Shown: positions 20,239-52,779 of the stretch, in pieces | Numbering within the stretch: the first letter of the stretch is position 1 | How the letters are laid out: every line of letters starts with the position of its first letter | From: an uncultured Ignavibacteria bacterium | Lineage (GTDB): Bacteria > Bacteroidota > Ignavibacteria > Tepidaquicellales > OLB5 | Direction: 5' to 3' | Assembly: GCA_937873695.1 (NCBI GenBank) | Contig: CALMYL010000008.1 | Location: 62,001-126,000, forward strand | Length of the DNA stretch: 64,000 nucleotides | Translations under genes and position numbers: made by a program | Notes under the pieces: model-generated | The model's input: only the letters and a program-made list of their open reading frames with translations | What the model was told of the DNA's origin: nothing | Databases searched by the model: none

Positions 20239-20258
20239 ATCCCCGCGAAAGCGGGGAT
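20239..20258. repeat. family B palindromic repeat, copy 1
   Basis: ATCCCCGC-GAAA-GCGGGGAT: 8-bp arms around a GAAA loop, directly after the SDR stop codon, followed by CTC. Other copies are at 21129 and, inverted, at 22455. Confidence 0.8.
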
Positions 20259-50046: not shown

Positions 50047-50862
50047 ATGTCAGAATCGGTTAAGAACACGGGATACAAATATAAAGAATACGCACCTCCC
50101 GCCGAATTCCTGAATGCTATAGAAAAGTTCTGGGTTTTTGAATCAGCTTCTTTTACAGGCAGCAAAACCCATTTTCATTTATTATCCGATTATACGACTT
50201 CACTGATCTTTACTTTTCCTCAGTCAAAGGAAAGAAATGAGATCTTTGTTTCAGGACCAAATCTATCGAATTGTCCATTCAGGAACTTACCTTATCTTAT
50301 AACTATCGGTGCCCGTTTTCATCCCTCGGTTTTTCAAAAAATATTTCCCATTGCAGCAATTGCGGCAAAAAATAAAGCTGTAAAACTGCAAAGTTTCTTT
50401 ACATCACCTAAGATAAAACAATTGAAAATTTCATTAGGGAATGTAAAGAGCACTGCTCAAAAGTTGTCTGTTATTTCCGGATTTCTGAAAGGAGAGCTGC
50501 ATGGTTTTACTTTACCGGCAGATCCGGTTTCTTCAGTCATTGAAAAAATAACAAATAGTGATGGATCATTGAAGCTTGAGCAGGAATACTCCAATTTACC
50601 GATAAGCCCCAGACAATTTCAGAGGAATTTTGCAAAGGCAACCGGCCTTACACCAAAGGAATTTTGCCGTTTGGTAAGATTTCACACCGTGACCAGAAAA
50701 CTCGTAAAGAATAACTTCAGGCATTTTGATACACTGATTGAATCGGGTTATTATGACCAATCACACTATTACAGGGAATTCAGAGAGTTTCTTGGGATGC
50801 TGCCATCCGGGTTTGAAAGCAGGCAGAAGTTGATCGATCATAAATACCTGGTAGCAGAATGA
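50047..50862 (+). CDS. AraC family transcriptional regulator
   Basis: A 271-residue regulator. The N-terminal approximately 150 residues resemble the DUF6597-type ligand domain (YAPPAEFLNAIEKFWVFE and a conserved TIGARFHPSVF). The C-terminal domain has the AraC double helix-turn-helix, with ISPRQFQRNFAKATGLTPKEFCR and ESGYYDQSHYYREFREFLGMLPSGF. A neighbouring secreted protease-like gene on the same strand is a possible target. Confidence 0.85.
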   Translation: MSESVKNTGYKYKEYAPPAEFLNAIEKFWVFESASFTGSKTHFHLLSDYTTSLIFTFPQSKERNEIFVSGPNLSNCPFRNLPYLITIGARFHPSVFQKIFPIAAIAAKNKAVKLQSFFTSPKIKQLKISLGNVKSTAQKLSVISGFLKGELHGFTLPADPVSSVIEKITNSDGSLKLEQEYSNLPISPRQFQRNFAKATGLTPKEFCRLVRFHTVTRKLVKNNFRHFDTLIESGYYDQSHYYREFREFLGMLPSGFESRQKLIDHKYLVAE

Positions 50863-50910
50863 GCGCGGTCATATGTCGCTTTTTTACAATACATTTCTCT
50901 TACAATAAAT

Positions 50911-50918
50911 TAATTTTG
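50911..50918 (+). promoter_or_regulatory. TAnnTTTG (-7-like) box
   Basis: TAATTTTG, 18 nt before the ATG at 50937. It supports that start over the upstream frame start at 50859, which overlaps the AraC gene. Confidence 0.45.
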
Positions 50919-50936
50919 TGTATAAATAATAACAAT

Positions 50937-52241
50937 ATGAAACTGACAATTTTCCTGATATTAGTACTGGCAGCCGGCACTTGGGCAGAAACTATTTCAA
51001 CAGGACAAGGCTGCCGAGAGAGGCTATCTGCAAGTAATGGTTTTACTGATTTGCTGGTATTGCTCGAAAATAAAGATCTTTTCAGGTTCTGTGAAAATTT
51101 TGATAACACGGTGCTGAATGATTGGGAAAGATCATACATTAATGCGCTGATACTCAATCTGAGACATAAAAACTATGAGTCTAACAAGACGATTTCAGAA
51201 GTCATTGAAAAGTACGGAAGTGAACTTCACGATTCCCTCAAAATGCAGCTTTATGAAACGAGAATGAAAAACTCTGTGAATTTGTTTGATTATAAAGATG
51301 CTTTATACTGCACTGAGTATATTTTGAAGAATTATGCCTCACTGCTTGATTCTGCTGAGGATGAAGATATGAGGAACTCTATGGTAATTTGGAAGGCTGC
51401 AGAGAATATTCAAAAGCAGAGCATTGTAATTGCCGGGGATTCAAAGATCCCGCTAAAAAAAGATCTGGCCGGACTTATCAATATCCCTGTAAAGTGCGGA
51501 GGCGATAATGAAGATTTCATTTTTGATACAGGCGCTAATTTTTCTGTGGTTAATGAAACATATGCAAAGAAGATGAAGCTAATAATGCTTGAGGGAAGTA
51601 TTGAAGTAGGTTCAGTTACAGGTAAAAAGGTCAAATCAAAGCTTGCCTGTGCAGAATTGCTTGAAATAGGAGGTATGAAATTAAGCAATGTGCTGTTCCT
51701 GGTTCTGCCGGATGAATCGTTAAGCTTTGCAGGAGGACTATACGCAATAAACGGGATAATCGGATTTCCGGTAATCAAAGAAATGAAAGAAATTCATATC
51801 AGGAGAGAGGAAGTATTCATACCAAAAGAAAAAACATCCGGCACACTTTCAAATATGCTGATAGACGGTTTTATTCCATCAATAGAAATCATTGATGGAA
51901 ATGATTCACTCGCATTTACATTTGATACAGGTGCCAAAGCTACAATGCTTTATTCATCGTATTACCGGCGCAACAAAACAAACATTGAAAGTAAGTATGA
52001 GATAGAGGAAATAGAGTTCGGCGGGGCAGGTGGTACAATTAAGGTTAAGGGGTTCAGACTTGACAATATTGTTTTTAAAATAGGAAATTCAAAGCTTAAG
52101 CTTGATGACGTAAGAGTTATTGCTGAAAATATCAAAGATCATGATAAGGGATATTTTGGTAATCTCGGTCAGGATTATATGGGCGAATTCAATGAAATGA
52201 TACTAAATTTTGAAGATATGTACGTGGATTTTAAAAAGTAG
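50937..52241 (+). CDS. secreted double retropepsin-like aspartic protease
   Basis: A 434-residue protein. Starting at 50937 it opens with a clear signal peptide (MKLTIFLILVLAAGTWA). A helical region (about 30-175, TPR-like) precedes two retropepsin-like half-domains. The active-site motif FDTGANFSVVN is at about 196-206 and FDTGAKATMLY at about 328-338. Each single domain normally has to dimerise, so two on one chain could form an intramolecular active site. It probably cleaves or binds peptides in the periplasm; the substrate is unknown. Confidence 0.75.
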   Translation: MKLTIFLILVLAAGTWAETISTGQGCRERLSASNGFTDLLVLLENKDLFRFCENFDNTVLNDWERSYINALILNLRHKNYESNKTISEVIEKYGSELHDSLKMQLYETRMKNSVNLFDYKDALYCTEYILKNYASLLDSAEDEDMRNSMVIWKAAENIQKQSIVIAGDSKIPLKKDLAGLINIPVKCGGDNEDFIFDTGANFSVVNETYAKKMKLIMLEGSIEVGSVTGKKVKSKLACAELLEIGGMKLSNVLFLVLPDESLSFAGGLYAINGIIGFPVIKEMKEIHIRREEVFIPKEKTSGTLSNMLIDGFIPSIEIIDGNDSLAFTFDTGAKATMLYSSYYRRNKTNIESKYEIEEIEFGGAGGTIKVKGFRLDNIVFKIGNSKLKLDDVRVIAENIKDHDKGYFGNLGQDYMGEFNEMILNFEDMYVDFKK

Positions 52242-52394
52242 GGTGAAGCTACATGGTGTCAGGTTTTAATCATTTCACCATGTCCACTTAACTCCGTGAA
52301 AATCATACCAATTGTTAAGAACAAAGTAATTTATAAATCTACATTACATTGAGGCATAAAAACAAGGGACTGATGCCTCTTGTTTTATTTCTAT

Positions 52395-52516
52395 GGAGAG
52401 GGAGGGATTCCTCCGAAGGTCCAAGGACTCTTCGAGAGTCCCTTTGGGAGAACCCTCGATAGAGGTTAACCTCCTATTACGTTTTAGTCCGCCAACTGGC
52501 GGATTGATTTGAGCCA
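52395..52516 (-). pseudogene. truncated tRNA-Ser-like copy 1 with hairpin insertions
   Basis: Matches tRNA-Ser from the 3' acceptor strand through the T-arm, variable arm and anticodon 3' stem, then lacks the D-arm left side and 5' acceptor. The T-loop is replaced by a nested palindrome (GGACTC-TTC-GAGAGTCC within 52419-52450). The anticodon loop region holds TCCGCC-AACT-GGCGGA. It cannot fold as a tRNA. Confidence 0.8.
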
Positions 52517-52520
52517 AAAA

Positions 52521-52546
52521 AAGCAAGTATTTGCATACTTGCTTTA
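52521..52546. terminator. hairpin after truncated tRNA copy 2
   Basis: AAAGCAAGTA / TACTTGCTTT stem with TTTGCA loop. On the - strand it is followed by T residues. It is a copy of the tRNA-Ser terminator at 52654-52679. Confidence 0.75.
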
Positions 52547-52556
52547 AAATACTTGC

Positions 52557-52648
52557 GGAGAGGGAGGTCCCTTCGGGAGAACCCTCGTGGTATGGGTTGA
52601 CCCCCTATGACGGTTTAGTCCGCCCACTGGCGGATTGGATTGAGCCAA
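52557..52648 (-). pseudogene. truncated tRNA-Ser-like copy 2 with hairpin insertions
   Basis: The same 3' two-thirds of tRNA-Ser as copy 1 with fewer changes. The T-loop carries TCCC-TTC-GGGA, and the anticodon stem-loop 5' side is replaced by TCCGCC-CACT-GGCGGA. The 5' acceptor and D-arm start are missing. The intergenic hairpin is repeated behind it. Confidence 0.8.
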
Positions 52649-52680
52649 TAAAAAAGCAAGTATCTGCATACTTGCTTTAA
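52649..52680 (-). terminator. intrinsic terminator of tRNA-Ser
   Basis: AAAGCAAGTA / TACTTGCTTT hairpin followed on the - strand by six T residues, about 10 nt after the tRNA 3' end. Confidence 0.85.
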
Positions 52681-52689
52681 AATACTTGC

Positions 52690-52779
52690 GGAGAGGGAGG
52701 GATTCGAACCCTCGATAGAGGTTGACCCCCTATGACGGTTTAGCAAACCGTTGGTTTGAGCCACTCACCCACCTCTCCG
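52690..52779 (-). tRNA. tRNA-Ser (GCU)
   Basis: A full class II tRNA of 90 nt: acceptor GGAGAGG / CCTCTCC, discriminator G, anticodon stem ACGGT / ACCGT with loop TTGCTAA (anticodon GCT; forward bases 52743-52745), a long variable arm and T-loop TTCGAAT. CCA is not encoded. Two truncated copies follow it in the direction of transcription. Confidence 0.95.

Follow-up and report, generated by a model that had tools for sequence, protein, structure and literature searches.

Broken tRNA-Ser copies in an Ignavibacteria genome as probable remains of a tRNA-linked GIY-YIG element

Results

Two broken copies follow the tRNA-Ser(GCT) gene

The window analysed here, a stretch of 64,000 nucleotides from an uncultured Ignavibacteria bacterium, contains a tRNA-Ser(GCT) gene that is followed, in the order of transcription, by a terminator-like hairpin, a broken tRNA-Ser copy (unit 2), the hairpin again and another broken copy (unit 1; Table 1). 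As described in the first-pass annotation, the three units lie in tandem in one orientation, with starts at 52395, 52557 and 52690 on the plus strand; only the third is called as a tRNA by ARAGORN and Rfam. The 5′-truncation of units 1 and 2 and the palindromes in their anticodon arm and T-loop, likewise reported there, are seen in both copies. The first 15 nt of tRNA-Ser are missing from either unit. The anticodon-arm sequence of the intact gene reads CCAA[CGGTTTG]CTAAACCGT, and the same stretch of units 1 and 2 reads (C/T)CAA[TCCGCC-N4-GGCGGA]CTAAA(A/C)CGT, the 7 nt CGGTTTG of the 5′ half of the arm being swapped for a 16-nt palindrome. Moreover, the T-loop of unit 1 (GGGTTC-GAATCCC) is split by 39 nt of nested hairpins, to which related sequence is present elsewhere in the genome, and the T-arm of unit 2 has an 11-bp palindrome in place of the GAATCC side. 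A 51-nt repeat at the first terminator-like hairpin is 98% identical to positions 52517-52567.

Table 1. Features of the tRNA-Ser(GCT) locus (positions in the window)
Feature	Position	Strand	Basis
Intact tRNA-Ser(GCT)	52688..52778	-	ARAGORN; Rfam RF00005, 59.6 bits
Terminator-like hairpin AAAGCAAGTATGCAGATACTTGCTTTTTT, 3′ of the intact tRNA-Ser	52650..52687	-	sequence
Unit 2, broken tRNA-Ser copy, tRNA positions 16-91, without 5′ end	52555..52647	-	
Palindrome TCCGCCCACTGGCGGA in place of the anticodon-arm 5′ half, unit 2	52619..52634	.	
Palindrome TCCCTTCGGGA in the T-arm of unit 2, 3′ of TTC (RNA sense)	52568..52578	.	
Terminator-like hairpin, second copy	52517..52554	-	
Unit 1, broken tRNA-Ser copy	52395..52516	-	
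Palindrome TCCGCCAACTGGCGGA in place of the anticodon-arm 5′ half, unit 1	52488..52503	.	
Nested hairpins of 39 nt splitting the unit 1 T-loop exactly between GGTTC and GAATCC	52411..52449	.	

Folding of the locus, a check suggested in the first-pass annotation, revealed that the 384-nt strand is much more stable than its shuffles (z -7.3). The seven neighbouring proteins (a response regulator, a histidine kinase, an AraC-type protein, an aspartyl protease, a member of the arginase family, DnaX and a BNR repeat protein) include no integrase, and the integrase gene adjoining the tRNA that would mark a tyrosine-recombinase integrative element is thus absent from this locus. The aspartyl-protease-like gene and tRNA-Ser point in the same direction in G009 (L016) and G011 (L008); in the window (50859-52778) and in G001 (L009), the tRNA and its array are inverted relative to this gene.

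Broken copies accompany many tRNA species

A search for the same tRNA-Ser locus in relatives, many of the genomes compared being MAGs, recovered similar broken copies. They carry the junction CCAA-palindrome-CTAAACC beside the same tRNA gene in G000, G002, G010 and G012, and the form TCAA-palindrome-CTAAACC upstream of tRNA-Ser in G013, a member of another genus. The palindromes of the relatives differ from those of the window, and the junctions are identical. Since units 1 and 2 are only 88% identical across 130 nt and relatives have their own versions with differing hairpins, an assembly duplicate or artefact is ruled out.

A peculiarity of tRNA-Ser was rejected, as many isotypes have broken copies. 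In this genome, 12 of 41 tRNA species are affected, namely Val, Cys, Ile(GAT), Ile(TAT), Ala(GGC), Ala(TGC), Pro(CGG), Arg(ACG), Arg(CCT), Gln(CTG), Leu(CAA) and Leu(GAG), against 0.45 expected from a control in which each tRNA was set against the flanks of the others. The corresponding figures are 11 of 32 (0.42 expected) in a genome of a distant family and 3 of 30 (0.07 expected) in G009, which belongs to the same genus, whereas a relative with a single strong GIY-YIG match yielded 0 of 31. Among these four genomes, the excess is present in the three GIY-rich ones and absent from the GIY-poor one.

The first-pass annotation had proposed a repeated duplication of the tRNA 3′-end. This holds for the copies downstream of the gene, which are 3′ halves (64 of 72 are 5′-truncated), but is not the sole form, as upstream of the gene 5′ halves occur instead (32 of 41 copies 3′-truncated); consequently, one tRNA stays whole. 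Both the anticodon arm and the T-loop are intact in just one of the 113 copies. The T-loop is intact in 17 of the 113 and in fMet units, and a universal T-loop cut site is therefore unsupported. Several contigs of G000 (C1, C4, C13, C14, C22 and C23) end at or near tRNA genes or tRNA-copy arrays, which suggests that these arrays break the assembly.

A short GIY-YIG ORF adjoins the broken copies

Several of the broken copies adjoin a short ORF of about 80 aa, barely more than the GIY-YIG catalytic domain. The ORF of relatives matches PF01541 with 64 bits, and the residues Y, YxG, R, H and E are conserved in alignments. The full element comprises approximately 0.3-0.45 kb beside an intact tRNA gene, in which the ORF adjoins an incomplete copy of that tRNA, often together with the tRNA's own terminator. 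ORFs of this kind begin or end inside tRNA fragments. The start lies within the T-loop of the broken copy at Ile(TAT) (GGTTCATAAAATATG) and at most about 15 nt from the tRNA 3′-end at Cys and Gly(TCC), and the fMet ORF is located 3′ of a fragment with TCCGCCGACTGGCGGA in the anticodon arm. Locus L137 consists of the 5′ part of tRNA-Gly, a hairpin, the ORF and the intact tRNA-Gly without a gap, and L139 represents the mirror form, in which the intact tRNA-Ser is followed by the ORF, a 3′ tRNA-Ser part with a T-loop double hairpin and the next ORF.

The ORFs are not inside an intron or intein, but adjoin tRNA genes or sit in fused tRNA fragments. In L141 (Berkelbacteria, 1600-2300), the anticodon region of a tRNA gene beside a GIY-YIG ORF apparently contains a group I intron, the only one at the loci read and one that belongs to the neighbouring tRNA; a nearby tRNA copy carries TCCGCCAGCTGGCGGA in its D-loop.

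In a single scan of named genomes with one nuclease, all nine loci recovered (9/9) lie beside a tRNA gene or fragment; they derive from Ignavibacteria, an unclassified bacterium, a MAG labelled Rikenella, Neomarinimicrobiota and Patescibacteria. A phage or plasmid origin was rejected: 50,697 phage records contained no match, plasmids gave just two weak ones, and two scans of viral contigs yielded no relative of the nuclease. The open-licence literature searched contained the phage enzyme SegB and no report of such chromosomal elements, and the chromosomal tRNA-linked GIY-YIG element is apparently undescribed so far.

Nuclease lineages follow the tRNA isotype

Linkage was assessed for 116 GIY-YIG ORFs, some of which were fetched via their tRNA; they were divided into 98 short and 18 long ones after the data had been seen, by a crude rule that left some long-type proteins in the short group. 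A tRNA or tRNA fragment is located within 150 nt on the same strand of 72 of the 98 short-type ORFs, against 1/98 for antisense tRNAs and 7/98 for positions far away, and 0 of the 18 long-type ORFs have a tRNA sequence so placed. In a tree of 101 nucleases, the 26 rows without tRNA linkage form one clade (99). The isotype labels require 38 changes on this tree compared with a mean of 72 after shuffling (0 of 200 shuffles as low), a clustering to which near copies contribute and in which many forks are unresolved. The Ser and Cys lineages each occur in families f1 and f10, the Gly(TCC) lineage in f1, f10 and f25, and the fMet lineage in f1 and the Rikenella-labelled MAG.

The fMet lineage served for a prospective test that was set beforehand, for which 392 genomes of the phylum were searched for relatives of its nuclease. 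In the newly sampled genomes, 18 of 20 loci are at tRNA-Met and 0 of 20 at another isotype; the remaining two, both on short stretches, had no tRNA that was found. As for the other loci of the fMet list, some are at Asn and represent the neighbouring clade, and the rest are at Met (G010 and G049). Thus, the nuclease lineages follow the tRNA isotype.

Occupied, empty and nuclease-less sites

One locus, Gly(TCC), allowed a comparison of occupied and empty sites between species. In G009 the site is empty and reads ...CTCCCGCTCAAATAAAAAAATAATAGC..., whereas in G000 and L135 the nuclease and a 3′ Gly copy with TCCCGCGAAGCGGGA are inserted after ...CCCGCTCA; the downstream genes are the same in all three. 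The genomes compared contained no presence/absence pair inside a single species. Tandem arrangement is illustrated by G246 (C34, 6988-9769), where eight fMet-type GIY-YIG ORFs follow one another about 365 bp apart.

In contrast to the window, whose own tRNA-Ser array lacks a GIY-YIG ORF, the nuclease is still present downstream of tRNA-Ser(GCT) in G009 and G002 of the same genus, and in G002 it is followed by broken Ser copies with hairpins at the junctions seen in the window. A relative of the Ser nuclease is likewise at tRNA-Ser in a genome of family f10, and three further Ser-linked nucleases share 65-78% identity with that of G009. Because G009 and G002 have the nuclease at this tRNA and the window only the copies, the window array is, as judged by sequence comparison, a nuclease-less remnant, and the nuclease would formerly have been present at this tRNA-Ser gene in the window's lineage.

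The hairpins insert into loops within and outside tRNAs

Of 37 T-loop inserts, 26 are located exactly 3′ of TTC. The inserts consist of double hairpins, 22 nt long in the window's genus (TCCCGAAGGGA CTCCTTTGGAG) and 18 nt long in another family (TGCGAAGCA TCCTTCGGA and similar). Among twenty variants of the 22-nt set, pairing is kept in 97.5% of cells, and both partners have changed in 5 of 8 pairs (1.3 on average after shuffling, 0 of 500); the agreement is weaker in the 18-nt set (2 of 6 pairs). Hairpins with a stem of at least 5 are present in 28 of 34 anticodon-arm inserts and 22 of 24 D-arm inserts, compared with 15-20% of shuffles.

The 22-mer occurs at 26 sites in this genome (reversed control, 0), and outside tRNAs it is mostly located in the loop of another hairpin, e.g. 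CCCCTCTCCTTT[22-mer]TAGGAGAGGGG. This dispersed repeat is found on G000 contigs at L324, L325, L329, L331, L333, L334 and L338, and near L333 and L334 a hairpin of this type occurs unfilled (CCCTCTCCTGTGAGGAGAGGG), so that the 22-mer looks inserted into the hairpin loop. By their sequence, the hairpins appear to be a small repeat, dispersed in the genome, whose insertion sites are hairpin loops, whether of tRNA origin or not. The first-pass suggestion of palindromic elements that target tRNA copies is correct in that hairpin elements do enter the loops of copies, but the tRNA as such is no target, the 22-mer residing mostly in unrelated hairpin loops. As the 22-mer is not tied to tRNAs, the window locus joins a loop-inserting hairpin repeat to a separate entity, the nuclease-tRNA element.

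Two further ideas about the hairpins were rejected. The motif TCCGCC..GGCGGA is not specific for tRNAs (23 sites against 4 in the control, mostly in other palindromic repeats), and the double hairpin does not represent the fused ends of a deleted GIY element, as no ORF was seen between its two hairpins. Palindromes of the type TCCCCGCGAAAGCGGGGA / ATTCCCGCGAAAGCGGGAAT are dispersed between genes at window positions 20239, 21129 and 22455.

Discussion

We consider units 1 and 2 to be probably (at a probability of about 0.62) the remains of a tRNA-Ser-specific, SegB-like free-standing GIY-YIG homing element that has lost its nuclease. The linkage to tRNA genes, the isotype fidelity, the empty site, the tandem units and the disarmed copies support this; cutting, gene conversion and protection by hairpins would complete the picture as follows. 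The nuclease would recognise its own tRNA gene in an element-free allele and cut there, comparable to phage SegB. The element-bearing copy would then template the repair, with the tRNA halves serving as homology, whereby the unit is installed and the tRNA left whole. Recombination between the repeated halves could generate tandem units, from which the ORF might subsequently be deleted or worn away; the end product would be bare arrays as in the window, and both bare arrays and an ORF-bearing counterpart at the same tRNA are observed. The short loop-inserting hairpin repeats would enter the copies, of which nearly none retains both anticodon arm and T-loop, and hairpin-filled copies may then be neither usable as tRNA nor cuttable. 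Against homing, the protein of 80 aa is devoid of the extra DNA-binding region usual in homing endonucleases, and the adjacent intact tRNA should itself be cuttable. Moreover, the disarming of the copies may reflect loss and hairpin entry and play no part in nuclease resistance.

SegB of phages T4 and T6 is a free-standing GIY-YIG homing endonuclease that is encoded in a tRNA cluster and cuts inside tRNA genes (PMC13096335). It prefers the motif RAWTSGAAC, the reverse complement of which, GTTCSAWTY, is T-loop sequence, and tandem amplification of a tRNA segment depends on its nuclease activity (PMC13096335). The survey in that study covered proteins of phages and archaeal viruses (PMC13096335). 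The elements described here share with SegB the free-standing GIY-YIG gene beside tRNA genes and the tandem tRNA units. However, SegB is a phage gene, whereas these elements are chromosomal, encode about 80 aa, are isotype-specific by lineage and are joined to broken tRNA halves with hairpins. Solitary GIY-YIG proteins of the UPF0213 type (PDB 1ywl, 1zg2) are likewise small and barely more than the domain, and match the tRNA-linked type weakly in sequence (E 3.5e-4); in the class sampled here, the long types (GYT..WSRKKKEAL and GFT..NP.W) differ from it, as they make up a clade of their own that lacks tRNA linkage. The hairpins resemble REP/REPIN and other small dispersed palindromes in being short repeats spread through the genome, but the double hairpin, of 22 or 18 nt, is lodged in the loops of other hairpins and of tRNA copies.

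Other explanations deserve consideration. Elements of the tyrosine-recombinase type also use a tRNA gene as target, leave a partial copy and keep one tRNA whole, and the downstream copies, being 3′ portions up to the tRNA 3′-end, resemble the attachment-site duplications that repeated integration of such elements would leave as scars. The first-pass annotation, which had invoked an integrating element of this kind, was right that a mobile element using the tRNA gene is involved; yet with a solitary GIY-YIG nuclease as the recurrent partner instead of an integrase, 5′ halves upstream of the gene, hairpins in loops and units of 0.1-0.45 kb with a GIY-YIG ORF that recur across phyla, we regard integrase scars as very improbable. 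It is less far-fetched, though still unlikely, that the tRNA region was duplicated by slippage, that hairpins later entered the neutral copies and that GIY-YIG genes merely prefer tRNA neighbourhoods without a causal role. The units do resemble tandem duplications, the window array is devoid of a nuclease and the hairpins, as dispersed loop-inserting repeats, do not depend on tRNA. However, the excess of copies is confined to GIY-rich genomes (among the four analysed), ORFs begin or end inside tRNA fragments, and the isotype fidelity holds across families.

The arrangement could also operate at the level of RNA. The order of parts resembles a type III toxin-antitoxin system, the antidote of which is a tandem array of structured RNAs. 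The GIY-YIG protein would then cleave or guard its own tRNA, with the pseudo-tRNAs as transcribed decoys or antidotes. The operon-like succession of tandem structured repeats, terminator and small ORF, the strict pairing of nuclease and isotype, the compensatory changes in the T-loop double hairpin, the very stable fold of the locus strand and the almost invariable destruction of the anticodon arm are in line with such a function. Nevertheless, GIY-YIG enzymes are known as DNA nucleases, many copies are mere 5′ or 3′ halves that cannot adopt a tRNA-like fold, the same inserts are contained in non-tRNA hairpins, and the nuclease is missing from many arrays including that of the window, which renders this reading distinctly unlikely. 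Slightly less doubtful, but unlikely all the same, is that the hairpin-bearing pseudo-tRNAs are active RNA or DNA antidotes, bound yet uncut by their GIY-YIG partner, and that bare arrays guard the host tRNA gene against invading copies, all within a widespread, isotype-specific class of elements that pair tRNA and nuclease.

If the homing element proposed above is real, the solitary short GIY-YIG nuclease, which is common and unexplained, would gain a target, one tRNA gene per lineage. It would represent a selfish element of very small size, resident in essential bacterial chromosomal genes that it does not destroy, and would account for broken tRNA copies able to break assemblies. Through its pairing with an isotype, the nuclease offers a direct test of how a minimal GIY-YIG domain recognises its target. 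A separate question, raised by the loop-inserting double hairpin, is how a 20-nt hairpin comes to be moved into other hairpin loops.
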